From: a virus
Direction: 5' to 3' (one strand)
Virus record (IMG/VR): IMGVR_UViG_3300020385_000028
Coordinates: 1 to 37,425 of that record
Length of the DNA stretch: 37,425 nt
Made by a program: the position numbers and the translations under genes. The notes beneath the pieces were generated by a model. The model was not told where the DNA came from, searched no databases, and worked only from the letters and a program-made list of their open reading frames with translations. The first letter of the stretch is position 1, and each line of letters begins with the position of its first letter. Positions 21,413-34,631 of the stretch are shown here, piece by piece.

Positions 21413-23194
21413 TTACGGATAGCTTTTCATTACATCGCTCTCTACCGCAAACAATTCCGTAGCTTGAGTGTTATAGTTTGTTATAGTAAATATACAATAA
21501 TGTCCTAGTAAACCATGAGATTCCGCTTCAGAACTTTTTATAAACATAATGTATGGGTCATTTAATGGAAAAGCTACAGTGTTTGCAGAGGTTGTACTTA
21601 CAATTAATTCATTGATTCCGTTTTGTAAATCTACATTTATCTGAGTTACAATTCCACCATAAGAAACCTCAGTGTATTGAGGTAGAGAATGGTATACATA
21701 ATCACCTATGCTTATAAAATTACCTATCGATACAAGTGGGTTTGTAGAAAAACTAAGAGTTGTTGTCCCTTGTGTGATAGCTACATTAGATGTTTTTCCT
21801 ATACCATTAGCAGACCTCATTGCATATTGTCCTTCAAGTGCTGGCACTTCTCCGCTTTGTCTAAGATATGCAAACCACGCTCCTTCTTTCTTTTCAAACC
21901 AACCATCTTGCATAAACCCGTTTATTTGTATATCTGTTTCTAAATAAGATTCCCAAGCATCATTAGATTCTAAATTCAAAGTTTTAAAAACTTTATTTTC
22001 TAATGGATTCTGATTAAACACACTTGTTATTTGTGAATTAAATTGCTCACCATAGTAATTATTTCTTAACTCATTAGTGTTGTGTCGATATAAATTACCT
22101 CCTTTAAATGTGTAAAAGAAGTTATTCATTCCTATCATATACTCTGGTATATAAGAATAAAATGATGGCCAACCTTTAGAGTTTTCACTATAACTAACTG
22201 TCCACTCAGTGTTAACTGGCGACGGGATGGGAGGTACAACACTTTTAGGTGTTGGCGCTGGAGTGGCTGGGGTAGGGACTGGAGGTGTAGATGGATTACA
22301 ATCAGTTGAAAATCTTAAATTATTTTGACCTAAAAAATATGCTCCATTTGTAGACATTGGATATAGAGTCTGATAACTTATAGCTCCAAAATCTCCATTT
22401 ACATTTAATGTTATTGTACCTGAATAAAAATCATATTGATTTCCATCTAATGCAGTTGCGGTTTTTTCTTTATTATCAGCATTTCCAGTGTATGAAATTG
22501 CATTTTCTTTTCCATTATTTAAAAAAGCAATTGGATACCTTTCTGGTACATCTTTTATTTGGTATACTCCAGTGTTAACCCCGTAAATTCCCCACGCTCC
22601 ATTTATAACATAAAAATTTGTAGTAATATCTTGATAGGTTACTTCACTGACTGAAAGAGTATTATTAAAACTCAAACAATATTGAGCTACACCTGGTGGT
22701 GATGGTGGTGGTGATGGTGGTGGTGATGGTGGTGGGGCTATACCAGTAGCACACGTCGCACAATCGCTATAGCTTGGAATATTTTCGATATCTAAATTTG
22801 ATGGGTCTGCTTGATTTACACCATTTGTCCAACAAATAGATTGATAAGCTAAAGTGTTTGGCCACCCAGTAAAACTAACCGGTGCTCTAAATATTTGTTT
22901 TTGACTAGAGTTGTTGCAGTTTTCATATTCATAATAGTTATATTCTTGTACAGGTGTTCGGTCAGCATCACCACACTTTGTTGAACAGTTTTGTTCTGCG
23001 TCTCTTGCAAAACCATAAACAGATGTTTTTCTAATTTCAGAACCACGCTCTAAACAATATACGTGAATATCATTTGCAGGAACTTTTATATTTATTTTAT
23101 CACCACTATTACAAGTGACTACCCACGTACATTGACCATTCTCGTCACCTATGTGGTCTATAGGGCATTCAAAATTAAAAGCAGCACCAGCCAT
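21413..23194 (-). CDS. Pro-rich modular virion/fibre protein with extensin-like Ser-Pro3 linker (593 aa)
   Basis: Residues 1-150 form a Cys-rich region whose second half repeats the module seen in the neighbouring fibre protein (YNYYEYENC...SICW...YSDCATC). A linker at about 153-168 is PPPSPPPSPPPSPP, the Ser-Pro3-4 motif of plant extensins. A second Cys-containing domain follows, then a second linker (PVPTPATPAPTPK, about 305-325). The C-terminal 260 residues (GWPSFYSYIPEYMIGMNNFF, FKGGNLYRHN) recall a segment I know from crAss-like tail stabilisation proteins. It is probably a tail fibre or spike attached to the nozzle. It is the last gene after the modification cassette and has its own -7 box. 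Confidence 0.7.
   Translation of the reverse strand: MAGAAFNFECPIDHIGDENGQCTWVVTCNSGDKINIKVPANDIHVYCLERGSEIRKTSVYGFARDAEQNCSTKCGDADRTPVQEYNYYEYENCNNSSQKQIFRAPVSFTGWPNTLAYQSICWTNGVNQADPSNLDIENIPSYSDCATCATGIAPPPSPPPSPPPSPPGVAQYCLSFNNTLSVSEVTYQDITTNFYVINGAWGIYGVNTGVYQIKDVPERYPIAFLNNGKENAISYTGNADNKEKTATALDGNQYDFYSGTITLNVNGDFGAISYQTLYPMSTNGAYFLGQNNLRFSTDCNPSTPPVPTPATPAPTPKSVVPPIPSPVNTEWTVSYSENSKGWPSFYSYIPEYMIGMNNFFYTFKGGNLYRHNTNELRNNYYGEQFNSQITSVFNQNPLENKVFKTLNLESNDAWESYLETDIQINGFMQDGWFEKKEGAWFAYLRQSGEVPALEGQYAMRSANGIGKTSNVAITQGTTTLSFSTNPLVSIGNFISIGDYVYHSLPQYTEVSYGGIVTQINVDLQNGINELIVSTTSANTVAFPLNDPYIMFIKSSEAESHGLLGHYCIFTITNYNTQATELFAVESDVMKSYP
22695..22736 (-). repeat. 12-bp tandem repeat coding the Ser-Pro3 linker
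   Basis: On the plus strand the unit GGTGGTGGTGAT repeats about 3.5 times without error. It codes for PPPS repeats on the minus strand. The unit is a multiple of three, so copy-number change would alter linker length without a frameshift. Confidence 0.85.
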
Positions 23195-23240: not shown

Positions 23241-24074
23241 TTAATTTACCATCCACTCCTTAACCAAGTTATAAAAACCATTGTCAGGGTATTTGCATAT
23301 ATCGTGATTTGGAAAAGTTCTTTTATTAAACACAGGGTCAACACTATAATGAGCAAAAAAATGTTCTTGTTCATTATAATGATTAAAATTAGGAATATAC
23401 GTATTGTTTTTGCCAATCATTTTAATTTTATTATTATGACATACTATTGATAAAGCAGTCATACAACTCCACCATTTCCAAGTAGGCTCTTCTTTTGATT
23501 CTACAATTTGTTCAGCTACAGATATAATTTCATCTATAATGTTTTTTAAAACTTTCACCTTAATAAATATAGGGACAAACCCTCCGTTCATATACTGTCC
23601 GTCTTCGTGTTTTAAATAAGGCTTTATTTTAGTATAATTTTTTTTATGAGAATTAGCTATAAACATGTGCCAGTCTTCATATCCATCATAACATATTATA
23701 GAATTATCATCAGGCAAAGGACCTGTGTATGGCTTTAAACTTACCATGTCCATATCACATAGAACCAGTATATCATCATCTTTGTATTGTGACAGTAATG
23801 GTTTTAAAGAAGAAATAACATTAATTACAATACAGTTATCATTTCTGCTTGACACATAATTCCATATAGGTGGACAAATATAATAAGGCAAACCTTTTAA
23901 ATCCCAATCAATTGAATTATATGTAGGACTATTTACAGTGTTTTGTTTTACCACTGTAACCAAACTATTAAACACTGCTTTATCTTTATATGATTTCTGT
24001 TGAGCATAAGCCCAAAAGTTCGCCATCCATTTATAACGTTCATCAACTATAGCGCTAGGTATAAATCTAATCAT
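23241..24074 (-). CDS. Putative GT-A type glycosyltransferase (277 aa)
   Basis: The centre reads DDDILVLCDMDMVSLKPYTG: a hydrophobic strand ending in a DxD motif (D-M-D), which binds the metal and sugar nucleotide in GT-A enzymes. A later segment GQYMNGGFVPIFIKV resembles the acceptor/ribose loop 'xxNGGxxxx' of such transferases. Trp/His-rich parts follow (TWKWWSCMTAL, EHFFAHYSV). No membrane helix is present, so it acts in the cytoplasm. It is the last gene of a four-gene cassette with a dioxygenase, an RmlB-like dehydratase and another transferase. Family number not recognised; donor and acceptor are inferred only. Confidence 0.62.
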   Translation of the reverse strand: MIRFIPSAIVDERYKWMANFWAYAQQKSYKDKAVFNSLVTVVKQNTVNSPTYNSIDWDLKGLPYYICPPIWNYVSSRNDNCIVINVISSLKPLLSQYKDDDILVLCDMDMVSLKPYTGPLPDDNSIICYDGYEDWHMFIANSHKKNYTKIKPYLKHEDGQYMNGGFVPIFIKVKVLKNIIDEIISVAEQIVESKEEPTWKWWSCMTALSIVCHNNKIKMIGKNNTYIPNFNHYNEQEHFFAHYSVDPVFNKRTFPNHDICKYPDNGFYNLVKEWMVN

Positions 24075-24077
24075 AAA

Positions 24078-24761
24078 TTAATATGTTTGACCAGGTACAG
24101 GTTCTTGAATATGTTCATGTTTTAAATCAATAGTATTATGAATCAAAACCTTTTCTTCATCTTTTATTGCTATAGGAAATAATAACTGGTCTTGAACGTG
24201 ATAATATTTTTGAGTATACTCTTCCATTTTTTGTTTTATAATTTGAAACCTTTGATGTGTTGTATTATAAACCATCATACCTCCATAAAATAATTTTAAA
24301 TCCTCATAACCTTTATTTTCATTTTCTTTAATTGTTCTTATCATTTCATTTATATCATTTTTATATCTTGGAAAACTTAATGATTTAAAAAATTCGTGAT
24401 ATATACTTGAGGTGTTTATAAAAGATAAAAAAGAATTGTTGCCAATTAACTCTATTAATTTTATAGCGTGATTATGTTGTATTTTATATTTATGGTCTAT
24501 ATAAATTACATACTTTGTTTTAACAATATGATGTTTTAAAAATTTAACATACTTGGATTGTCTTGTGCCTTCCCTCAGGTCGTATGTATGTGTAAATGGT
24601 AAGATGCGAACCTCCCATCCATTTTGGTTAGCATGTTCATTAAATTCAACATCTCTTAATGTAGTATATACTATAGCATTCTTAATATTTGTTTTATGTA
24701 CCTTATTAAAATATCCGGTTACACAAGTAACAACAGTATAATCATTTATATCTGCAGCCAT
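24078..24761 (-). CDS. TOD1/MUCI70 (DUF616)-like glycosyltransferase (227 aa)
   Basis: The pattern 'TGYFNKV...REGTRQSKYVKFLKHHIV...YVIYIDHKYKI' matches the DUF616/TOD1_MUCI70 family as I know it: a basic stretch before a strand that ends in D-H-x, in place of the common WxD. A second block (YGGMMVYNTTHQR) and a late QDQLLFPIAI (equivalent to the RDQ motif) complete the fold. Plant members of the family are Golgi glycosyltransferases. The gene overlaps the RmlB-like gene by 16 nt and is followed 3 nt later by the second transferase, so the three products are made together. Substrate unknown. Confidence 0.65.
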   Translation of the reverse strand: MAADINDYTVVTCVTGYFNKVHKTNIKNAIVYTTLRDVEFNEHANQNGWEVRILPFTHTYDLREGTRQSKYVKFLKHHIVKTKYVIYIDHKYKIQHNHAIKLIELIGNNSFLSFINTSSIYHEFFKSLSFPRYKNDINEMIRTIKENENKGYEDLKLFYGGMMVYNTTHQRFQIIKQKMEEYTQKYYHVQDQLLFPIAIKDEEKVLIHNTIDLKHEHIQEPVPGQTY

Positions 24762-25762
24762 CTTTTATTATTCATTGTCCAGTCAACAGTTTCTTTTAAT
24801 TTATTATAAACCTCACTAGGTGTCCAACCGATAGATTTCATTTTATTTCCACAAAGAGCATATCGTAAATCGTGCCCAGGTCTTGAAGAATGAAAATCAA
24901 TTATTTCATAATTTAATTTTTTACCAAGCACATCAGCAATATAGGACGCTAATGACAGATTGTCTATTTCTTCTGAACCTACTATGTTATATTTAGGACA
25001 TTTAATACCAGTGTCATCAGCAACAGAGGGAGTGTTATTATTTAATAAAAACAACAATGCATCAGCAACATCTTTAGCATGAATATAATGTCTGCTTCCG
25101 GCTTTATTTTTTTTATCATTACCGTGTATAAATATTTTTTCACCTTTCAAAACCTTATTAATACACATAGGTATAAATTTTTCTGGATGTTGTCTCTCAC
25201 CAAATACATTCATAGTATGTGTTATAATATTTGGCATTTTATATGTGTTTTCAAAAGCTACAACTAACTCCTCTGCACCTGCTTTTGTAGCGCTATATGG
25301 ATTTGTTGAGTTATATCTATCATTCTCTTTATACTTTACGGCCCCTGGAGCTGGACCAAATACTTCATCTGTACTGAAATAAACAAACTTATCTAAACTG
25401 TCTATAGATTTAGCGTATTCAAGAATATTAGTTGTTCCTACTACATTATCCATAACAAACTCCATAGGATAATCTATACTTCTATCTACGTGTGAACCGG
25501 CAGCCAAATGTGCTATATAATTAATATTGCCTATAGCTGAAACTATTTGTGAATTTAATGGAGCTTTTAAATCGTGATGTATAATTTTAACTCTATTACT
25601 ATCTTTACGACCGCCTACTACTTCTTGTAATCTATTTAGATTACCACTGAAATCAAGTCTGTCTAAAGATACAATTGTCCAATCAGTATTATCTAATATA
25701 TTTTCTATAACGTGATGAGCTATAAAACCTGCTCCACCTGTTACTAAAATTGACTTACTCAT
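24746..25762 (-). CDS. RmlB-like NAD-dependent nucleotide-sugar 4,6-dehydratase (338 aa)
   Basis: An extended short-chain dehydrogenase: NAD-binding TGGAGFIAHHV near residues 8-18, the active-site STDEVFG typical of sugar-nucleotide 4,6-dehydratases, and YSATKAGAE with the Tyr-x-x-x-Lys pair. NVFGERQHPEKFIP and the RHYIHAKDVADAL segment near the C-terminal part complete the match. RmlB makes dTDP-4-keto-6-deoxyglucose; related enzymes use UDP- or GDP-sugars, and the nucleotide cannot be fixed here. It would supply the donor for the two transferases downstream. The ATG at 25762 overlaps the dioxygenase stop (ATGA), preferred over a TTG at 25777. Confidence 0.85.
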   Translation of the reverse strand: MSKSILVTGGAGFIAHHVIENILDNTDWTIVSLDRLDFSGNLNRLQEVVGGRKDSNRVKIIHHDLKAPLNSQIVSAIGNINYIAHLAAGSHVDRSIDYPMEFVMDNVVGTTNILEYAKSIDSLDKFVYFSTDEVFGPAPGAVKYKENDRYNSTNPYSATKAGAEELVVAFENTYKMPNIITHTMNVFGERQHPEKFIPMCINKVLKGEKIFIHGNDKKNKAGSRHYIHAKDVADALLFLLNNNTPSVADDTGIKCPKYNIVGSEEIDNLSLASYIADVLGKKLNYEIIDFHSSRPGHDLRYALCGNKMKSIGWTPSEVYNKLKETVDWTMNNKRWLQI

Positions 25763-27060
25763 TGTTTGTAAACCCAATCTTTTAATTGATAATGAACATA
25801 AAAGTTTCTAAAAAAAGCGCCGCCTAGAGATTCTTTTCTTCCGTGTTCACAAACTGCCGATTCGTATAGTATCATGTCGCCTGGCTGCGCATACACCTTA
25901 TACCACTCTCCATCGTGACCTTGTATGTCTAAGGGCCAATCATCTGCATATTTTTTATTTTGACATCCACATCTTAAATCTTTATCTACTATAATAATTG
26001 ATGAAACGTGATGAGTAGCAATTCTATCTACGTGTGGTGTTAATGTAGCCCCTTTGGTATATGACCTTATGCCATAAATAAATGAAGGCGTTAAAGATTC
26101 TTTTATCCAATCCTCATGTGTTTTTAATAATTGTTTATGAATCAAATTTTTTACGCTTGGTAAGTGGTCAAATGACATAATCTCAGTATCTCCCCCTACT
26201 ATAAATTCTTTTTTTCCATCAAACTCCTCTGTTTGTTTTTTGTCTTTTAACAACTCATAAGACTCGTTAATTAAGTTCCAAGTTTCTTCTGGACACTTTA
26301 TTAAAGTAAAACCATTATCAGTAAGTCTTGGAAAGTCATCTACATTAGTAAACTCTTTTTTTTCAATTTTTTGTTTTAAATTTTGTGTCTCTGATGCTTT
26401 AACTATATAAGATTTATTCTGCATACCTTCAACAATTTTTGACTCTTCAACTTTTTGCACAGGTTTTTCTTTTTGCGAATCATAATACATTTTTTCATCA
26501 CCAGCTCCATCCCAACCTTTTTCTCTCCACCAAGATGTTACAATGTATTTTTTACCCTCGTCTACAGTTACACCTTCATGAATATATTGGTCTTGTAATT
26601 TATCTTCTTTTAAATTATACCACCATAAAGCTTTACCTGTCTTAGGTTCTACAGTTTTTTGTAGAGTAGGAAAGTGAGTGCCTCCTCCTACAAAATCTTC
26701 GTTTAAATATATCATTAAAGTATGCGTTCTATTTCCAGAAGCTTTACAATGCATGTCATAAGCAGCTCCACTAAAAAAATCATTATGGGGTTTAAAATAC
26801 TGACCCGGCTGATATAATTGACCTTGAAGCGCCTCGCCTTTGTGTGGCTCTAATCCTAGTGTGTCAGCTATTTTGTTTTTTATTTTAGACATTATTGGAT
26901 TATTCATATCTAAATTTGATGTGCTTGATGTTCTGTAGTCCGTGACATCACTTCTATCTGTTCCCCCTACAACAACAGATGAGCGTGTGTGATTAGCATC
27001 AATCATTTTAATAAGTTCTTGACACTCCTCAGGCGTAATAAAATTATGTATTTCCTCCAT
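25759..27060 (-). CDS. Double-domain prolyl 4-hydroxylase-like 2OG-Fe(II) dioxygenase (433 aa)
   Basis: Domain 1 (about 1-185) has the prolyl 4-hydroxylase site: H92-x-D94 in FKPHNDFF, GNRTHTLMIYLN, GGGTHFP, H161 in YIHEGV and K171 (2-oxoglutarate) in GKKYIVTSWWRE. Domain 2 (about 235-430) has a second iron site: H343-x-D345 in TPHVDR, H406 in CEHGRK and R418 in FFRNFYVHY. A charged linker lies between. Prolyl 4-hydroxylases add 4-OH to proline in proline-rich peptides using Fe(II), O2 and 2-oxoglutarate. The gene follows the Pro-rich fibre gene and overlaps the RmlB-like gene, making fibre linkers the obvious substrate. That substrate is inferred. Both catalytic sets look intact. Confidence 0.85.
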   Translation of the reverse strand: MEEIHNFITPEECQELIKMIDANHTRSSVVVGGTDRSDVTDYRTSSTSNLDMNNPIMSKIKNKIADTLGLEPHKGEALQGQLYQPGQYFKPHNDFFSGAAYDMHCKASGNRTHTLMIYLNEDFVGGGTHFPTLQKTVEPKTGKALWWYNLKEDKLQDQYIHEGVTVDEGKKYIVTSWWREKGWDGAGDEKMYYDSQKEKPVQKVEESKIVEGMQNKSYIVKASETQNLKQKIEKKEFTNVDDFPRLTDNGFTLIKCPEETWNLINESYELLKDKKQTEEFDGKKEFIVGGDTEIMSFDHLPSVKNLIHKQLLKTHEDWIKESLTPSFIYGIRSYTKGATLTPHVDRIATHHVSSIIIVDKDLRCGCQNKKYADDWPLDIQGHDGEWYKVYAQPGDMILYESAVCEHGRKESLGGAFFRNFYVHYQLKDWVYKQ

Positions 27061-27113: not shown

Positions 27114-29633
27114 CTATGGACAATTAGTAACAGTACACGATAATGTAAATGATGAACCATTCCAGTATCTATAGAAACTTCCGTTATTATAGTAACCTGC
27201 AAATGCAGCTCTATCACAATTTGGAGTTCTGTATAAAAGTGTTGCAGTACAGAAATTATTTGTGTTTATATAATAAAACTCATAGTCGTCACACGCAATA
27301 TCATTTACGCTTGCTACAAGCTCTAAATTAACAAGGTTACAAGATGGACTTGGGGCTGGTGTCGGTACTGGTGTTGGAGTTGGTGGATTTTGACAATCTA
27401 AACAAAGATTGAATGACGCATATAAAGTATATGAACCATTAACACCTGAACCAGCGTTTGAGTCAAAAGAAAAACACACCGACCCACTTTTTAAAACATT
27501 AGGGAATGTAGTGCCAAATGGTGCGCTTACATCTAATAAATTACTAGGGTCGTCACAATCTAAGTATCTTCCATATATTGTAGTTGGAGTTGGAACTGGA
27601 GTTGGTGGAGTTGGCGTAGGAGTTGGAGCAGGACAAGGCCCATTGAAAACAACATTACCGTTACCGCTTGTTACAGTAGGCATCCCTAATGCACAAACTG
27701 GTATTGAATCACCATCCGGTACACTTTCAGTTTGCGAACTACCACTACAATCTGTGTAACTGAACGTTCCGCCACCAGAGCCTCCTTCTAACTCCCATTC
27801 ATTACAACCACTTGGTGTGGGAGCTGGTGTCGGTACTGGTGTGGGAGTTGGTGGATTAGCTGTTAAACAAGCAGTACAATCTACATAAACATTTATATAG
27901 TCGTTAGTATTTGCTGGTGCTGTATCTTCTGTTATCTCATAACATTTACCATCATTCATTTCTACTATATCATTTGGTCCAACACCACTTGCAAATGTTG
28001 CTCTAACAGTAGTAAGTGTTGCACTACCTCCTCCTGGACAAATAGTAACTTGATAGTAGTTATAAGAAGGCGTAGGCGTAGGTGGTGGCGGCGTAGGCGT
28101 AGGTGGAGTACAAGGTCCTACTAATGTAACACTACCTGAGCCACTTGTTAAAGTAGGTAATCCTAATGCACAAACTGATGCTGAATCTCCATCATCCACA
28201 CTTTCTGTTTGCGCAACTCCATTACAATCAGTATAACTAAAGTTTCCAACTGAACCTGGACCTCCTTCTAAATCCCATTCATTACAACCACTTGGTGTAG
28301 GAGTTGGTGTAGGTGGAGGCGGTGTAGGAGGTGGTGGATTATCTGCTATACATGCATCACAATCTACGTAAACATTTATATAGTCGTTAGTATTTGCTGG
28401 TGCTGTATCTTCAGTTATCTCATAACATCTACCATCGTTCATTTCTACTATATCTCCTGGTCCAACACCACTTGCAAATGTTGCTCTAACAGTAGTATAT
28501 AAAGTACCTCCTCCTCCTGGACAAGCAGTAAGCGTATAATAATTATAAGTCACCGTTACACAAGATGTAATAGATAAAACTTCACCATTTGAATTAATTA
28601 AAAATGCATATCCATTATTTAAATTTGGATAGTGACCGTTTACATTTGTTACACCATACCATTTTAAACCACCGTTAAATATATTTGTAAGTGTGTTGTT
28701 AGTGTAAAAGATATCACCAACCTGAACCGATGCAACATTTGCTCTCGATGTGTATATAGAAACTGAAGTTTGTAATACACATGCAGCGCTTGATGAACTT
28801 TGACCAAGGTTAACATTGTTAGTTGAAAACAATTGTATTCCTGGTGGCGGAGTTGGAACTGGTGGTGGAGGCGCTGGTACAGGTGTTGGCGTAGGCGTAC
28901 ACGCACCACAATTAGCAAATGAAGGTAATCCTGCAGCATCCACTAATGAAGTGGAAGTTGTAGATGATGGGCTCCCATAACAAATATTATTATATTTATA
29001 GACTGGCTGGAATGTTCCTCCAGATACTAATCTAAAAATTTGTGTCGCCGAGCCATTACAGTCAGTGTATTCTTTATAGTCGTAAGAAACCGTAGGCACT
29101 GGTGGCGGTGGCACTGGCACTGGCACTGGCACTGGCACTGGCACTGGCACTGGCGTAGGCGTTGGGCCTGGCGTAGGCGTTGTAGGCGTAGGCGTTGGGC
29201 CTGGCGTAGGCGTTGGCACAGGTGGGGTTGGAGGAGTACCACAATCAGTACAACTAGTATAACTTGGAAATGCATTTACATTTATAGTTGACGTTAAACC
29301 TGTTAACTGAGGGTCTCCATAACAAACACTATTATACAAAACACTTCCTGGAAAAGTTCCTCCTGTTACTAATCTAAAAACTTGAGTTCCACTTCCAGCA
29401 CATTCTGAATATATTCTGTAATCATAAACTATTGGACTTGGAACTGGCGTTGGCGAAGAACAATTAGGGCAAGAGCTTTCAGCAAACAAAACACCTGACG
29501 CTTGCTGCCTATATATTGACTCATCAGAATACCATCCATCAGGAGCAAAAGAAGTTAACTCTGTATCTGTAAACAATGCAGTTGCAGTTGAAAAACTTGA
29601 CGAGCTATAATAATATGTTCCTGTTGTTGCCAT
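27114..29633 (-). CDS. Pro-rich multi-module tail fibre/adhesin protein (839 aa)
   Basis: A chain of Cys-containing modules of about 45-90 residues (YDYRIYSEC, YDYKEYTDC, YNYYTLTAC, CNEWDLEGG, YNYYQVTIC, CNEWELEGG, YGRYLDCDD) joined by linkers of Pro with Thr, Val, Ala or Gly. The longest linker (about 133-183) includes seven Pro-Val units. Modules usually close with C-x-x-C, suggesting disulphides or metal binding. There is no signal peptide and it lies directly after the nozzle gene, so it is a virion fibre. The extended linkers resemble plant proline-rich glycoproteins and are likely substrates of the hydroxylase/transferase cassette just downstream. A perfect -7 box lies 11 nt upstream. 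Confidence 0.75.
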   Translation of the reverse strand: MATTGTYYYSSSSFSTATALFTDTELTSFAPDGWYSDESIYRQQASGVLFAESSCPNCSSPTPVPSPIVYDYRIYSECAGSGTQVFRLVTGGTFPGSVLYNSVCYGDPQLTGLTSTINVNAFPSYTSCTDCGTPPTPPVPTPTPGPTPTPTTPTPGPTPTPVPVPVPVPVPVPVPPPPVPTVSYDYKEYTDCNGSATQIFRLVSGGTFQPVYKYNNICYGSPSSTTSTSLVDAAGLPSFANCGACTPTPTPVPAPPPPVPTPPPGIQLFSTNNVNLGQSSSSAACVLQTSVSIYTSRANVASVQVGDIFYTNNTLTNIFNGGLKWYGVTNVNGHYPNLNNGYAFLINSNGEVLSITSCVTVTYNYYTLTACPGGGGTLYTTVRATFASGVGPGDIVEMNDGRCYEITEDTAPANTNDYINVYVDCDACIADNPPPPTPPPPTPTPTPSGCNEWDLEGGPGSVGNFSYTDCNGVAQTESVDDGDSASVCALGLPTLTSGSGSVTLVGPCTPPTPTPPPPTPTPSYNYYQVTICPGGGSATLTTVRATFASGVGPNDIVEMNDGKCYEITEDTAPANTNDYINVYVDCTACLTANPPTPTPVPTPAPTPSGCNEWELEGGSGGGTFSYTDCSGSSQTESVPDGDSIPVCALGMPTVTSGNGNVVFNGPCPAPTPTPTPPTPVPTPTTIYGRYLDCDDPSNLLDVSAPFGTTFPNVLKSGSVCFSFDSNAGSGVNGSYTLYASFNLCLDCQNPPTPTPVPTPAPSPSCNLVNLELVASVNDIACDDYEFYYINTNNFCTATLLYRTPNCDRAAFAGYYNNGSFYRYWNGSSFTLSCTVTNCP
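27640..28550 (-). repeat. Tandem duplication of a two-module unit (period about 480 bp)
   Basis: Two adjacent units, each a YNYY module, a Pro-rich linker and a CNEW module, are nearly identical in DNA. Matching stretches at 27877-28016 and 28360-28499 are offset by 483 bp, and the CNEW parts at 27781 and 28261 by 480 bp. The 3-bp difference is an in-frame linker change. Confidence 0.8.
29110..29151 (-). repeat. 6-bp microsatellite (GGCACT)7 coding Pro-Val repeats
   Basis: Seven perfect copies of GGCACT on the plus strand encode alternating Pro and Val on the minus strand inside the longest linker of the fibre protein. The unit is in frame, so slippage changes linker length by two residues per copy. 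Confidence 0.9.
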
Positions 29634-29657: not shown

Positions 29658-32600
29658 TTATACTGAACATCTTGAATCTCCACATCCTGCTACACGTACT
29701 GTTACTTCTCCACTATTACCATTTCCGCCAGTTGCGTATAAAGAAGCACAACCTTCCACGTTACCACCAAATGAATATTGTACCTCATCCCCAACTACAA
29801 CTCCAAGAGTTTGGTCAGATTTTAAATATACCGCTTCTAAAGAAACACAATCAATCCCAATAAAATAATCATACACAGGTATTACTGGAGTTGGAACTGG
29901 CGTAGGTGTTGGTACGGGTGTTGGCGTAAATGTACAATTACAACACGCATCAAATAAACTTGTTTGAGAATAACACAATTCTTGTCCAACAGAATTTCTT
30001 AAATCATAAATTAAATATAATTTGTTTCCACCTGTAGGCAATCCAAACTCAGCGCTATATAAATCAGGAGCACCAGAGGTGTTTATTGGAGTTGCTTTTA
30101 TCGAAGCAGCTAATAAAATACCCATGTCAGTTGAATTGTTTTCAAACAGAGCATCAGTTCTTAAATATCTAAACTCGTTTTCTGCAGGGTCAAATTGAAA
30201 ATTATCAAAATCTATTTTATTTGACCTCATTATAATAGTTGCGCCATCAGGCGGAATTATGTTTGAACCTTGAGGACCTTCTAATTCTCTATACTGAGAT
30301 ACTATTGGGTCATTAGGACTTGATAAAAATGTAACTAAATCACTTTGAATAGGAGATACAACTGAAGCATCTCTCCAGCCAAATTCTGTGTGTGAAAACT
30401 GGTTTGCATTAGCATTTGTTGTTAGCGTAATACTATAAACGCTAAACAACTCTTCTTCAGGACATTTAACCGTAACTTGTATTGTGTCATTTTGTAAAGA
30501 ATCTGAGGTAACTATTAACACTACTTCTGATGGTGTAGGATTAGGTTTTGGAAAAACTAAAGTTCCACTTTGATAAACAACTCCAGTTGTGTAAGTTACC
30601 CCATCATATATAGCTTGAATTGTATATCCAGTTCCAGATACTTGACCTTCCGTTTCTAAATCCAATCCTGCTTCTGAAACCATTTGCTGCTCAGTTCCTT
30701 CTGTTACAATTAAATCAGTATCTTCAAAAGGTATAACATAATCAATTTCAACATAATACAATTTAGATGGCGGCCCAGTATCCTCTCCAATATCAACACA
30801 GTAAACATATTCCTGACCCGCAACAATCGTAATGTTTTTTGTGACCCCACAAGCTGTACATAATTCTGTTTCAGGTTTTACAATTGTATTTGTTGTAAAC
30901 ACATACTCTTGCATATAAGGGTCATACCCACCTAATTTTTGTGTTGATGAAGCATCAGCAAATAAATCTCTAAACCAACTTCTCATACCTTCATTAGATA
31001 TAACCGTAAGAATTTCATTTTGAGCTGAGCTTCCTGTTAATTTAATAACCACATTTCTTTTTGCGTCTGTAAAAAATTTGTTTGCACCAAATTCTGCAAA
31101 ACTTTCAGGATGATTACTTATACCATAATCTTCAATACGAGCTATTTGCGTCCCTAACACTTCAGGTACAGATGTAACTACTCCACCTCCAGTTGAGTCT
31201 GATAATAAATTTTTACCAGCAAGTACATAAGATATTTTATCTTCTTGTAAAACAAGAATATCAGTTTCTCTAGCAAATAATATCTCGACATCACCATAAG
31301 TTTCTTCTAATGCTTTAAAATTAAGTAATCCTAAATTGAACTCATTAAGTCTATTTACATTTGATTCATCATTAAAAACACCACTGTATGTTAAGTCAGC
31401 AAACCTGTGTGCTTTTTTATATTCTTCATTAGACGTGGTAAATGTTCTATTACCTAAAGTAACTTGTTCACCTTTTATAGAGTCTCTTATTTTATTACTT
31501 TCCACTCCATTCCCATAAGAGTAACAATCAAAAAATCCTGTATTTACAATTCCAGGCTGATTTAATGTTTGGTTTTGTACGTTCCCTAAATGAAAATCAC
31601 CATTTATATCATAAGACTCACTATTTTCATACCACACATCTGGTAATGCTTCTTCTGGTTCTGTTTCAAACACATAAGTTGAGTTGCTTGCTGATACTGT
31701 AAAATTAACTTTTACTGATGATTCTCTGTGTTCTTCTCCAGCTCCACCACCACAAGAACTAGAACCTGATACTAATAAATATATGTTGTTTAAAACTTGG
31801 TCTACATAAAACCTATAATAAAACTCAGTGTTTGGTTGGGTGGCTGTAGAGCCAAAATACTCCGCTGATTTAATTTCATCTGCTGTTAATACTGCATTGT
31901 ATTGAGTTACACTTTTTGTTTGTGGTGGAGTAAGATTTACTGGAAACGGTGGGAAATTTTGAGATGTGTTAGGCGTAGGTATATAGCTGTTTATTATAGT
32001 TTCATCATCAGCTACATCTTCTATGCCTTCATTTAAAGTTGAAGCTATATTGTCACCTTCAAACCACTCTTGCATGTTTCCATAATTCCTAGAAGCAGTA
32101 AATTCTTTTTCTAAGGTGTAGCTTTTTTTTAAACAATCTTCGTTTTTACTAACTCCATCCCTTCTAAACTCAAACTCCATTTTTATTCTTGTGCCCACAG
32201 GAACATCGTAAACTAACGTAGTAGCAACCAGACCAGACCCTTCAGTAACAGTAAACATTGGGTATGCTACAACTGGATATGAATTTTGTTGTCCTCTTGC
32301 AGTGCTTGGCAATACTTGACTGTTAATAATTGAATCTTCGCGTGTATTAATTGAAAAATTAGAAGCATTAATCTTCATATATGTTCCTCCAAATACTTCT
32401 AGTTCATTTCCAGCTTCATCATAAATATTTATAAACCCTGAGCCTTGAGCTTGTTTTTCTAAAACAGTTGCATAGGTACACGTGTTTAATGCCCCTGTAG
32501 CATCTGCTTTAACTATTAACCTATCTCCTACTTCAACTTTTTGAGCGTTTTCTCCATCTAATAAAAAGTATGAGGAATTAGTTCCTGATTCACTATAAGC

Positions 32601-34631
32601 TATATTACTATAAATTGTTTGATAATTTGTAGCCGTAGGCTTTATAACAAACTTATATTTAGTTGCCCATGAAGGAGCAAGTTGAGATTCAGGTATTTGT
32701 ACTTGTATGAAATTTTTAGTATTTGAAACACTACAAGGTAAATTAACACTATTTAAATCACTTACTTGAGCTGTAGATGCGCGATTAAAATCATCCATAT
32801 ACACCATACCTATCTCATACCCTCTATTACTATGTAAACTTCCTATTGATGGCGATGTTCTTATAGAAGCTGTTACATTAGTAAATCTAAAATATGAAAT
32901 AATTGGGTCTAAAGGTGCACTACCTTTATCATAAACAGCAGCGTTTGCTTGTATACCAAATCTCGTGCTTGATGCAGTTGTTATAATTTCTAAAGGCTGT
33001 CCAGCTGGTGCTGTAGGTGTTGAACTTGTTCTACCAGTTTGAACTATATTAGTATATGTAGCATCAAAAGCTATCGGTAAAGCTGCGTTAAAAGCATCAG
33101 TCAAGGTTGTTCCTTCTGAAGCAGTATTAATAGGTTTTATATTAGTTAGCGTTCCTATCTTATCTACGAAATCTACATCAGTGGCTAAGGCATTAACAGA
33201 TATATAACTTCTAATTAGAGTGTAACTCCAAGTTACGTAATACACATCTTCCAACGGAACTGGCGTAGGTGAACCAGTGGCATAACTACTAGAGTATGCT
33301 ATTCCAAATGTAAACGTAAGAGTAGCTCCAGCTGTTAAAAAACCTGTTGGATTATTTGGTAACGGTAAAGCTGGTAATAATTCTACAAAAAAAGCACTAT
33401 CATCTATTTCAACCGCTGGTGCTGTACTGCCTGGAGGGTTAATTGAATATTCAGCACCTTTAGATTCATTAGCACTTAAACCGGTAAGATTGATAGTTTC
33501 ACTTTTTAGTATAGATTCAAATCCAAATTTAATTTTGCTTCCACTTGAAGTTTTTAAATCATATCCTTCAAAATAATTTCCATACACTAATCTATTTCCC
33601 ATTAACGTTTGAGCTTTTGCAAGCTGAGGTACGTTATCAAATAATCTTAATATTTCTGAATCTGGTAAAACTGTATATATTTTACGATTAGTAAATGTTT
33701 CACTTCTTAATGAGTTTACAGGATATCTAACTCTATTACTTACATCATAAGTCTCTAATACTTTTATAGTAGATGAATTAGATTCTTTAAATACCACTTG
33801 AACATCTGTAACACTTTTATCTCCAGAGTTAAAAGTAATTGTTACAGCATTAAACCTGTTTATCATTCCTTCATTCAAATAACTATTTGAACTAAAATTA
33901 AAAGAAGAAGGGCTAAATGCTGGTTCTGTAAACTGAGATATTGCTGAATACTCTTCATTATCATATTTATATCTATATCCAAAACAAATAAACTTATCTT
34001 CTAAATAAGAGTCAGTAATACTAGGTACTGTAAATGAATTTATAGTAGGAGCAGTAGTAGGAGGTTTTTTAATTACAAGAATTTCATCTTGATTAAAATC
34101 ATCTGTAAGGACAGCAGGCCTAGGGTCTCCATAATTTTTATTAATATTTACTACTCTAGGAGGATTATAATTGTCTGTAAAAAATAATAGGTTATCTATT
34201 TTATTTACACCTGTAATTAAAAAATTAGGATTAAAATTTAATGTTGTATTTATACCCTCTCCATTATCTATACTTATAACATGATAAATTAATTCTCCAG
34301 TTTCAACATCAAATGAAATTATTAAATCTAGCTTACCTGTAGCTCCTTGAGTAAAAGCAGGGTCATGAACAAACCAATAAATAACCAAATTAGCTCCATC
34401 TTCAAAAGCCCCTATACATCTTGCTTGAGAACTTAATTTAGTTCCATCAACATATTGAATTTCTGTTAAAGGTACATTTCCTTTAGAGTTTTCAACAGCA
34501 CCAATCTCAGAATCTTCAGTAGAACCAAGCCTTACATTTATAGCATTTACATACTCTCCATTTGGGACAAGCCTTTCATCAAGGCTTTTGTTCATTCGGC
34601 CCGCTATAAAATTTCTTTGAATGTTTGCCAT
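29658..34631 (-). CDS. Tail nozzle / 'stabilization' protein with Pro-Thr C-terminal extension (1657 aa)
   Basis: The N-terminus NFIAGRMNKSLDERLVPNGE, followed by YVNAINVRLGSTEDSEIGAVENSKGN, is the hallmark of the P22 gp10 / crAss-like stabilization (muzzle) family. In podoviruses this family forms the tail nozzle and plugs packaged DNA. Beta-rich propeller-like segments fill the first 1000 residues, and 'ASSTQKLGGYDPYMQEYVF' lies near 1240. At about 1565-1585 a linker TFTPTPVPTPTPVPTPV leads to a terminal Cys-containing module (YDYFIGIDC...). That linker and module style is shared with the two fibre proteins, so the extension is probably a fibre docking or adhesion unit added to the nozzle. 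It lies 1 nt after the adaptor gene. Confidence 0.82.
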   Translation of the reverse strand: MANIQRNFIAGRMNKSLDERLVPNGEYVNAINVRLGSTEDSEIGAVENSKGNVPLTEIQYVDGTKLSSQARCIGAFEDGANLVIYWFVHDPAFTQGATGKLDLIISFDVETGELIYHVISIDNGEGINTTLNFNPNFLITGVNKIDNLLFFTDNYNPPRVVNINKNYGDPRPAVLTDDFNQDEILVIKKPPTTAPTINSFTVPSITDSYLEDKFICFGYRYKYDNEEYSAISQFTEPAFSPSSFNFSSNSYLNEGMINRFNAVTITFNSGDKSVTDVQVVFKESNSSTIKVLETYDVSNRVRYPVNSLRSETFTNRKIYTVLPDSEILRLFDNVPQLAKAQTLMGNRLVYGNYFEGYDLKTSSGSKIKFGFESILKSETINLTGLSANESKGAEYSINPPGSTAPAVEIDDSAFFVELLPALPLPNNPTGFLTAGATLTFTFGIAYSSSYATGSPTPVPLEDVYYVTWSYTLIRSYISVNALATDVDFVDKIGTLTNIKPINTASEGTTLTDAFNAALPIAFDATYTNIVQTGRTSSTPTAPAGQPLEIITTASSTRFGIQANAAVYDKGSAPLDPIISYFRFTNVTASIRTSPSIGSLHSNRGYEIGMVYMDDFNRASTAQVSDLNSVNLPCSVSNTKNFIQVQIPESQLAPSWATKYKFVIKPTATNYQTIYSNIAYSESGTNSSYFLLDGENAQKVEVGDRLIVKADATGALNTCTYATVLEKQAQGSGFINIYDEAGNELEVFGGTYMKINASNFSINTREDSIINSQVLPSTARGQQNSYPVVAYPMFTVTEGSGLVATTLVYDVPVGTRIKMEFEFRRDGVSKNEDCLKKSYTLEKEFTASRNYGNMQEWFEGDNIASTLNEGIEDVADDETIINSYIPTPNTSQNFPPFPVNLTPPQTKSVTQYNAVLTADEIKSAEYFGSTATQPNTEFYYRFYVDQVLNNIYLLVSGSSSCGGGAGEEHRESSVKVNFTVSASNSTYVFETEPEEALPDVWYENSESYDINGDFHLGNVQNQTLNQPGIVNTGFFDCYSYGNGVESNKIRDSIKGEQVTLGNRTFTTSNEEYKKAHRFADLTYSGVFNDESNVNRLNEFNLGLLNFKALEETYGDVEILFARETDILVLQEDKISYVLAGKNLLSDSTGGGVVTSVPEVLGTQIARIEDYGISNHPESFAEFGANKFFTDAKRNVVIKLTGSSAQNEILTVISNEGMRSWFRDLFADASSTQKLGGYDPYMQEYVFTTNTIVKPETELCTACGVTKNITIVAGQEYVYCVDIGEDTGPPSKLYYVEIDYVIPFEDTDLIVTEGTEQQMVSEAGLDLETEGQVSGTGYTIQAIYDGVTYTTGVVYQSGTLVFPKPNPTPSEVVLIVTSDSLQNDTIQVTVKCPEEELFSVYSITLTTNANANQFSHTEFGWRDASVVSPIQSDLVTFLSSPNDPIVSQYRELEGPQGSNIIPPDGATIIMRSNKIDFDNFQFDPAENEFRYLRTDALFENNSTDMGILLAASIKATPINTSGAPDLYSAEFGLPTGGNKLYLIYDLRNSVGQELCYSQTSLFDACCNCTFTPTPVPTPTPVPTPVIPVYDYFIGIDCVSLEAVYLKSDQTLGVVVGDEVQYSFGGNVEGCASLYATGGNGNSGEVTVRVAGCGDSRCSV

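Follow-up and report, generated by a model that had tools for sequence, protein, structure and literature searches.

What a two-domain 2-oxoglutarate (2OG)- and Fe(II)-dependent oxygenase does in a phage is the question raised by the locus described here, which is carried on the IMG/VR virus record IMGVR_UViG_3300020385_000028, analysed as a whole (37,425 bases; the window). The record is a marine crAss-like phage. The isolates closest to it are phages of Flavobacterium, Cellulophaga, Tenacibaculum and Maribacter, and its host is presumably a marine flavobacterium. By sequence, the first domain of the oxygenase is of the prolyl 4-hydroxylase (P4H) type. The gene forms a compact, same-strand group with genes for nucleotide-sugar enzymes and glycosyltransferases, between virion genes whose products bear proline-rich linkers. 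Most likely the oxygenase provides the hydroxylation step in a system that hydroxylates and glycosylates tail proteins, and the locus is probably a phage-encoded cassette for the hydroxylation and glycosylation of proline-rich linkers of the phage's own tail. An earlier note on this DNA had described the oxygenase and suggested that its two domains might hydroxylate two positions or residues in turn; its overall interpretation is partly supported, and it missed that the oxygenase belongs to a modification cassette of several genes within a tail-tip (muzzle) locus.

A scan of viral contigs with the oxygenase, whose open reading frame (ORF) starts with ATG, returned 112 relatives, of which the best 80 of 112 were kept (the 80 loci, numbered with L); conservation is counted over the 56 distinct sequences among these 80 relatives and the window, which have 62-98% identity to the window protein. 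The two-domain layout is present in all 80 kept relatives and in the window, with lengths of 407-438 amino acids (aa), L034 being cut by the contig end. Two complete 2OG-Fe(II) oxygenase domains in one protein, as the earlier note had claimed, are confirmed by sequence matches and predicted fold, all eight site residues are where it had placed them (iron triads H92/D94/H161 and H343/D345/H406, basic residues K171 and R418), and both domains have the HxD...H triad, basic 2OG residue and double-stranded beta-helix of the superfamily. Nor are the halves close copies: no sequence similarity between them was detectable by BLASTP (best E 0.96), and hhalign of the two domain profiles gave a probability of 0.3%, with only the region around HxD aligned. 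The AlphaFold model (56 sequences) contains two oxygenase folds; because its mean pLDDT is 78 and its pTM 0.50, the single domains are usable and their mutual placement is not. The median pairwise dN/dS is 0.07 for domain 1 (124 pairs), 0.45 for the linker (113 pairs) and 0.15 for domain 2 (123 pairs), and both domains are under purifying selection, domain 2 less strictly.

Regarding domain 1, sequence and fold both bear out the proposed P4H pattern, which supports a role in proline hydroxylation. The domain matches Pfam PF13640 (8.4e-15) and solved P4Hs in the PDB (5iax, 2.4e-24 with the single sequence and 3.3e-35 with the profile), the closest solved sequence being the Bacillus anthracis P4H (3itq, 5hv0, 5v7y). 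The domain 1 model is nearest to the Chlamydomonas P4H (Cr-P4H) with a (Ser-Pro)5 peptide (3gze_A, Z 20.3, 2.5 A, 171 residues), with Z 19.7 to the B. anthracis P4H (5v7y_D), Z 18.1 to the P4H of chlorovirus PBCV-1 (5c5t/5c5u) and a weaker fold match to LH3 (Z 13.7). The residues H92, D94, H161 and K171 are invariant (56/56 distinct rows), as are R43-T44-S45, E76, R111 and W177, which correspond in the profile alignment to R93-T94-S95, E127, R161 and W243 of Cr-P4H; the numbering of R93 and S95 is our own count, while passages of PMC5684110 name E127, R161, W243 and, as iron ligands, H143/D145/H227, and describe roles of Glu127 and Arg161. The domain therefore combines similarity to proven P4Hs with the 2OG-site Lys and the substrate-positioning Arg/Glu pair. 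In Cr-P4H the peptide is covered by the betaII-betaIII loop and by a hairpin loop of residues 77-94, according to passages of PMC9676403, and residues 26-46 of domain 1 have low confidence in the AlphaFold model. In host genomes, a scan of genome contigs returned a single weak domain 1 match (Rhodanobacter, 28%), the scan being pattern-based and more matches not excluded.

Domain 2 is, as had been suggested, of a different branch. By sequence it matches phage families only (phrog_2954, 3.5e-18; phrog_3531, 5e-6), and no Pfam match was found for it in the window protein. Eleven named phage records had any match to the oxygenase, none covering 80% of the protein in one place, and among them only cyanophage S-SCSM1 matches domain 2 (29.8% over residues 244-431; two entries, one phage). 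The fold-match list of the oxygenase model is mostly filled by domain 1, and among the matches listed the nearest to domain 2 is 6n1f_B (Z 14.7, 3.5 A, 172 residues, over 220-433), with HalD and BesD next (Z 14.1). In the 56 rows H343 is conserved in 54, D345 in 51 (Glu in 5), H406 in 56 and R418 in 55 (one gap), so that the window protein has an unaltered HxD...H, as do 51 of the 56 distinct rows, and 5 depart from it. Parts of the oxygenase match PHROG families called 'ferrochelatase', 'DNA endonuclease' and 'DNA endonuclease V'; these were rejected as carried-over names because the matched regions have 2OG-oxygenase motifs. The families named 'ferrochelatase' (phrog_2954, phrog_3531), which match domain 2 (window:25762-26337), are probably misannotated, as is BFVD E3SI68.

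Regarding the surroundings of the oxygenase, the ten genes measured, from 34.6 kb down to 10.8 kb, share the minus strand and are separated by no more than 53 bases, with two pairs overlapping; the order is 1657-aa virion protein, 839-aa protein, oxygenase, dehydratase-like protein, 227-aa protein, HPAT-like protein and 593-aa muzzle protein (Table 1). HPAT is the hydroxyproline O-arabinosyltransferase of plants, which the HPAT-like protein resembles. The muzzle domain scores 65.6 bits against a PF25729 cut-off of 27. Peptides of the Pro-Val and Ser-Pro3 kinds, at which the earlier note had hinted, are present in the adjoining virion proteins: two SPPP stand in a muzzle linker, a repeated Ser-Pro3 that resembles extensin in sequence, and no SPPP was found in the 839-aa protein. 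The proline-rich length of the two Pro-rich proteins exceeds that in 1000 residue shuffles (212 against a maximum of 152, and 56 against a maximum of 33). Homologues of both virion genes are gp114 and gp115 of Cellulophaga phage phi18:3, whose annotations cite tandem mass spectrometry (MS/MS) proteomics, which counts in favour of the proposed cassette. Flavobacterium phage elemo has the homologue of the 1657-aa protein and that of the muzzle domain in one annotated protein (41802-46283 of NC_055853), and the cassette of the window thus lies inside a split muzzle locus. In the P4H-less phage MW202828 a 'putative glycosidase' gene (L082:16665-17213) stands between the two muzzle-locus parts, where the window phage has the cassette.

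Table 1. Features of the oxygenase locus in the window
Feature	Position	Strand	Remarks
1657-aa virion protein, phrog_14478	29658..34631	-	C-terminal part with TPTPVPTPTPVP linker; homologue of phi18:3 gp114
839-aa protein, candidate substrate	27114..29633	-	8 Pro-rich segments, 212 residues; TPTP, VPVP, PPPP
Longest Pro-rich segment of the 839-aa protein	29076..29249	-	58 aa, includes VP run
Two-domain 2OG-Fe(II) oxygenase, 433 aa	25759..27060	-	Domain 1 ~aa 1-184, linker, domain 2 ~aa 242-430
Domain 1, P4H type	26509..27060	-	H92, D94, H161, K171; R43, T44, S45, E76, R111, W177 matched in alignment to residues on the substrate side of algal P4H
Domain 2, double-stranded beta-helix oxygenase	25762..26337	-	H343, D345, H406, R418; conserved Cys364/Cys366
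Nucleotide-sugar enzyme, nearest dTDP-glucose 4,6-dehydratase	24746..25777	-	TIGR01181 3.9e-74; 19-base overlap with oxygenase gene
227-aa probable glycosyltransferase, cluster C3	24078..24761	-	No family match itself; relative L046 weakly GT34-like, E 0.012
277-aa HPAT-like glycosyltransferase	23241..24074	-	PF23452 19.8 bits, cut-off 23.9; conserved D107-M108-D109
593-aa muzzle protein	21413..23194	-	C-terminal PF25729 crAss muzzle domain; N-terminal part with two Pro-rich linkers
Muzzle PPPSPPPSPPPSPP linker, extensin-like Ser-Pro3	22676..22753	-	Sequence
Second Pro-rich linker of muzzle protein	22214..22303	-	Sequence

The muzzle gene lies downstream of the oxygenase in 71 of the 80 loci, the available sequence of the other 9 ending first, and this constant placement supports the proposed action on tail proteins. 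The genes between the two (the slot) fall into clusters C0-C10, with family assignment checked on representatives: C0 is GT32-like and/or GT60, C1 of the O-FucT family, C2 HPAT-like, C4 and C5 are nucleotide-sugar enzymes, C6 is a radical SAM/SPASM protein and C7 a carbamoyltransferase, C8 is weakly PhyH-like (0.002 and 0.017, below cut-off), and no family match was found for C9 and C10. The 71 slots contain C0 alone (29), C1-C0-C5 (9), C6-C0 (7) or C1-C7-C0-C8 (4); with C2, they contain C3-C2 (9), C4-C9-C2 (4), C4-C3-C2 (3, the arrangement of the window) or C2 (1); the others are C1-C7-C10-C8 (2), C1-C7-C8 (2) and nothing (1, L077). A C0 or C2 gene is therefore present in 66/71 slots, and 4 have C1 with C7, C8 or C10 but neither C0 nor C2. 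Assignment of C0 as GT32-like comes from L061 (PF04488, 3.7e-8) and as GT60 from PF11397 (L037 2.3e-39, L065 9.7e-32, L013 9.3e-26), L026 being a fusion of both types with the PF04488 half under cut-off. In relatives the GT60 scores exceed the PF11397 cut-off of 21 bits (L037 136, L065 111, L013 91.5, L026 52.5, L091 253), while GT60 had no match among the ten window proteins scanned. The O-FucT assignment of C1 (PF10250, cut-off 31.5 bits, relatives only) is carried by L065 (4.5e-13, 49.9 bits), with L013 (4.6e-5, 23.6 bits) and an 86-aa piece in L145 (22.1) below it. Small weakly PhyH-like proteins of 183-187 aa end the carbamoyltransferase-bearing cassettes (L032:11661-12209, L065:5800-6348), and the C8 protein is perhaps, by its sequence, a third oxygenase. 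The mean Pro-Pro share of the linkers, excluding duplicates and loci with <15 counted prolines, reaches 0.35 where GT32-like stands alone, against 0.02-0.13 in four slot types with GT60; that the transferase type fixes the linker type is not claimed, as ancestry explains the pattern as well.

Two families that are in print as hydroxyproline glycosyltransferases, HPAT-like and GT60, thus recur in the slot, which supports the proposed cassette. Alternatively, the sugar genes could alter the host surface (superinfection exclusion or receptor masking) and be unrelated to the oxygenase; the highly variable slot content is like that of surface-altering islands, and polysaccharide synthesis is another known use of GT32-like and nucleotide-sugar enzymes, but described members of GT60, HPAT and O-FucT are protein-directed and the sugar genes adjoin Pro-rich virion genes, with GT60 of L091 the only one found in P4H-less loci, so that this explanation is the least probable of those considered.

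The first upstream ORF of >200 aa is Pro-rich in 68/68 loci that have one (13/81 being without one on the available sequence), and the muzzle is Pro-rich in 71/72, the exception being a 116-aa end piece; both counts support the cassette. A control scan with the muzzle of the P4H-less phage MW202828 as query gave 44 loci. Among 112 loci whose muzzle core is 225 aa or longer, some of which overlap on one contig, 79/79 with P4H are Pro-rich whereas by ORF 0/33 without P4H are (38 and 23 at <97% identity), L091, which is Pro-rich without P4H, being a needed correction; besides L091, no ORF of >150 aa in the P4H-less loci L082-L127 exceeds 21 Pro-rich residues. Hidden Markov models (HMMs) for HPAT-like, C3, GT32-like, C1, domain 1 and domain 2 had no match in 43 P4H-less loci (L082-L127) and the GT60 HMM matched L091 only, while the same search of three P4H-bearing loci matched domains 1 and 2 in all three and HPAT-like in two; GT60 was found in 0/20 records without linkers. 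This contrast in Pro-rich muzzles and sugar-gene matches again supports the cassette. A scan with the HPAT-like family alone, which was pattern-based and missed L096 (where HMMs detect HPAT-like as well as domains 1 and 2), found 27 viral contigs, 9 of them outside the 80 loci, with domain 1 in 27/27 and both domains in 26/27, and this association is further support. The architecture with domain 1 only, seen in L144, was rejected: its oxygenase and HPAT-like genes show frame breaks (L144:8014-12669), its muzzle ORF is shortened, and it is probably a low-quality contig.

The same module was detected outside the muzzle locus on two short contigs, where the oxygenase stands behind ribonucleotide reductase genes: L143:1-5071 has ribonucleotide reductase, the two-domain oxygenase (53% identity to that of the window), a GDSL-like protein, an HPAT-like protein and a Pro-rich protein, and L145:1-4528 has the small and large ribonucleotide reductase chains, the two-domain oxygenase and the start of an O-FucT family protein. 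These contigs are independent support for the module, which seems to move between phage lineages, and hence for the proposed cassette. They also bear on the possibility that the oxygenase modifies a host protein and is an auxiliary gene placed here by chance; its nearest solved relative, the B. anthracis P4H, interacts with EF-Tu and modifies it, according to the title of 5v7y. Passages of PMC12774648 describe prolyl-hydroxylase-like proteins as widespread in phages of marine bacteria, which would suit such a role, but the constant tail-tip position in the 71/80 loci that reach the muzzle gene, the occurrence alongside Pro-rich virion proteins and not in relatives that lack such proteins, and the recurrence next to HPAT-like and Pro-rich genes in a different phage setting make it quite improbable.

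Several observations weigh against the hydroxylation and glycosylation of the tail linkers, the first of them concerning the enzymes. In domain 1 the invariant F89 (56/56) takes the place of the conserved Tyr140 of Cr-P4H, a catalytic-loop residue highly conserved among P4H sequences according to passages of PMC9676403; because of this single deviation the domain is named P4H type, with predicted activity. The window's HPAT-like protein stays below the PF23452 gathering score (19.8 of 23.9 bits), and 5 of 13 distinct HPAT-like members, as well as L131, have no HPAT match, while 8/13 match at E 0.1; the relatives L035 (33.3 bits), L135 (33.0) and L012 (25.2) pass and L143 (23.4) is just under the cut-off. 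Its structure model is poor (pLDDT 48, 13 sequences) and a PDB profile search with the HPAT-like alignment gave nothing relevant (best E 0.17), so that the kinship rests on sequence profiles and the gene is named HPAT-like and not filed as a GT95 member. The dehydratase-like protein, although its best NCBIfam and PDB matches are still of the dTDP-glucose 4,6-dehydratase family, scores 249.6 bits against a TIGR01181 equivalog cut-off of 365.1, and such an enzyme would point to a 6-deoxy sugar and not to arabinose.

Domain 2 has the correct fold in the model, which covers half of the refuting check named in the earlier note (a domain 2 that lacks a usable pocket), but H343 is lost in two distinct relatives, L037 and L040, and its iron site appears from these sequences to be dispensable in one lineage. 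The altered or lost domain 2 iron ligands occur only in the lineage that has GT60 next to a radical SAM/SPASM gene (L037:11236-12135 and kin), and the radical SAM enzyme may have taken over a second modification there. It is conceivable, if on balance rather unlikely, that domain 2 mainly binds substrate or a partner and is not an enzyme of its own, which would be compatible with the proposed cassette: besides the loss of H343 and the Glu for D345 in five distinct rows, Tpa1 and OGFOD1 are among the Foldseek matches, with whole-model alignment only at 17-19 A root-mean-square deviation. The window protein retains all four site residues, however, and most distinct relatives retain HxD...H, the dN/dS is low, and all five departures (L037, L040, L045, L049, L051) are confined to the lineage whose slot starts with C6.

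The loci themselves supply further counter-evidence. In L077:4620-5873 only 54 bases separate oxygenase and muzzle, and the Pro-rich linkers (Pro-Pro share 0.33, like that of its GT32-like kin) are present with a slot that has no sugar gene. In the muzzle tree the P4H-bearing loci form one clade (99/100) with L091 inside it, and the 79/33 table therefore reflects roughly a single shared gain followed by one loss, and not dozens of independent events. L091:3-10036 has Pro-rich virion proteins, a strong GT60 (6.7e-75) and a 762-aa GT32-like protein, and no P4H was found on its 33.5-kb partial contig, in a search whose positive controls matched 3/3; in L094/L131, one contig and sister of L091, the first part of domain 1 is out of frame with the rest. 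Both suggest that loss of P4H is tolerable and favour some Ser/Thr glycosylation. L091 is also a natural test of the transferases without hydroxylation. Finally, in the P4H-bearing chlorovirus PBCV-1 no hydroxyproline was found in virions, as far as passages of PMC7019647 report.

These loci lend some weight to the idea that the transferases act directly on Ser/Thr of the X-Pro linkers, in a mucin-like manner, with the oxygenase separate and, for example, stiffening the polyproline helix. Many linker prolines are indeed preceded by Thr or Ser, GT60 includes both the Skp1 hydroxyproline GlcNAc-transferase and a Trypanosoma cruzi polypeptide GlcNAc-transferase (passages of PMC6939170), GT95, the family of HPAT, is related to GT96, that of the extensin Ser-galactosyltransferase (passages of PMC8012813), and O-FucT (PF10250) takes its name from protein O-fucosylation. 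The linkers also have long VP and PP runs without Ser/Thr, however, and HPAT-like was not found without domain 1 in the 27 contigs or in the 43 P4H-less loci, which makes direct Ser/Thr modification unlikely.

Under the preferred hydroxylation and glycosylation of tail linkers, domain 1 would convert linker prolines to 4-hydroxyproline and domain 2 would carry out a second oxidation on the same linkers or their flanks. The transferases (HPAT-like here; GT60, GT32-like or O-FucT in relatives) would glycosylate the hydroxyproline and perhaps neighbouring Ser/Thr, with a phage-specific donor supplied by the dehydratase or another sugar-nucleotide enzyme. The tail tip would become a hydroxyproline-rich glycoprotein with stiff, sugar-coated and protease-resistant polyproline spacers, whose surface chemistry could vary by exchange of transferase genes. 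The chances are roughly even that the loci together represent a complete, exchangeable phage pathway of hydroxyproline glycosylation for its own virions, a mobile module in which a two-headed hydroxylase would prepare the linkers and transferases of unrelated families would add different coats.

With candidate substrates, hydroxylase and transferases in one operon, a virus that hydroxylates and glycosylates its own particle would be directly testable in a bacterium. If confirmed, the system would add hydroxyproline O-glycosylation to the known phage tail modifications, offer a possible reason for the P4H-like genes of other marine phages and provide small candidate hydroxyproline glycosyltransferases for engineering. 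No phage hydroxyproline-glycosylation system was found in a literature search, bioRxiv and most subscription papers being outside its scope.

Regarding known systems, the B. anthracis P4H, closest in sequence to domain 1 among solved structures, differs in having a single domain and is reported to modify EF-Tu. The Tpa1/OGFOD1 prolyl 3-hydroxylases are alike in having two oxygenase folds in one chain with the prolyl hydroxylase first, but the substrate is ribosomal, position 3 rather than 4 is hydroxylated, and the second fold is non-catalytic. Lysyl hydroxylase LH3 and mimivirus L230 likewise combine hydroxylation with subsequent glycosylation, with lysine as substrate and the activities fused in one protein. 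The PBCV-1 P4H (vCPH) is a virus-encoded P4H with the fold of domain 1, and we know of no sugar cassette linked to it. It has been known since 1999 and differs from the window protein in its single domain and in the negative virion result given above (passages of PMC7019647). The Skp1 pathway of Dictyostelium and Toxoplasma (passages of PMC6939170) is matched in phage relatives by a P4H near a GT60 gene; the window differs in having an HPAT-like gene in place of GT60, many repeat prolines are present here against one there, and the role of GT60 in these phages is predicted from sequence. From the Chlamydomonas and plant system of P4H, GT95 HPAT and extensin Ser-galactosylation the phage locus differs in its target, the virion and not a cell wall, in having no endoplasmic reticulum/Golgi route, in the second oxygenase domain, in the Phe for the conserved Tyr, in a donor that is probably not UDP-arabinose and in an HPAT match under cut-off, while it shares the P4H fold and peptide-side residues, the Ser-Pro3 and X-Pro repeats and an HPAT-like transferase in the same operon. 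If the proposed activities hold, the cassette would be an equivalent, in a bacterial virus, of the extensins of plants and the Skp1 pathway.

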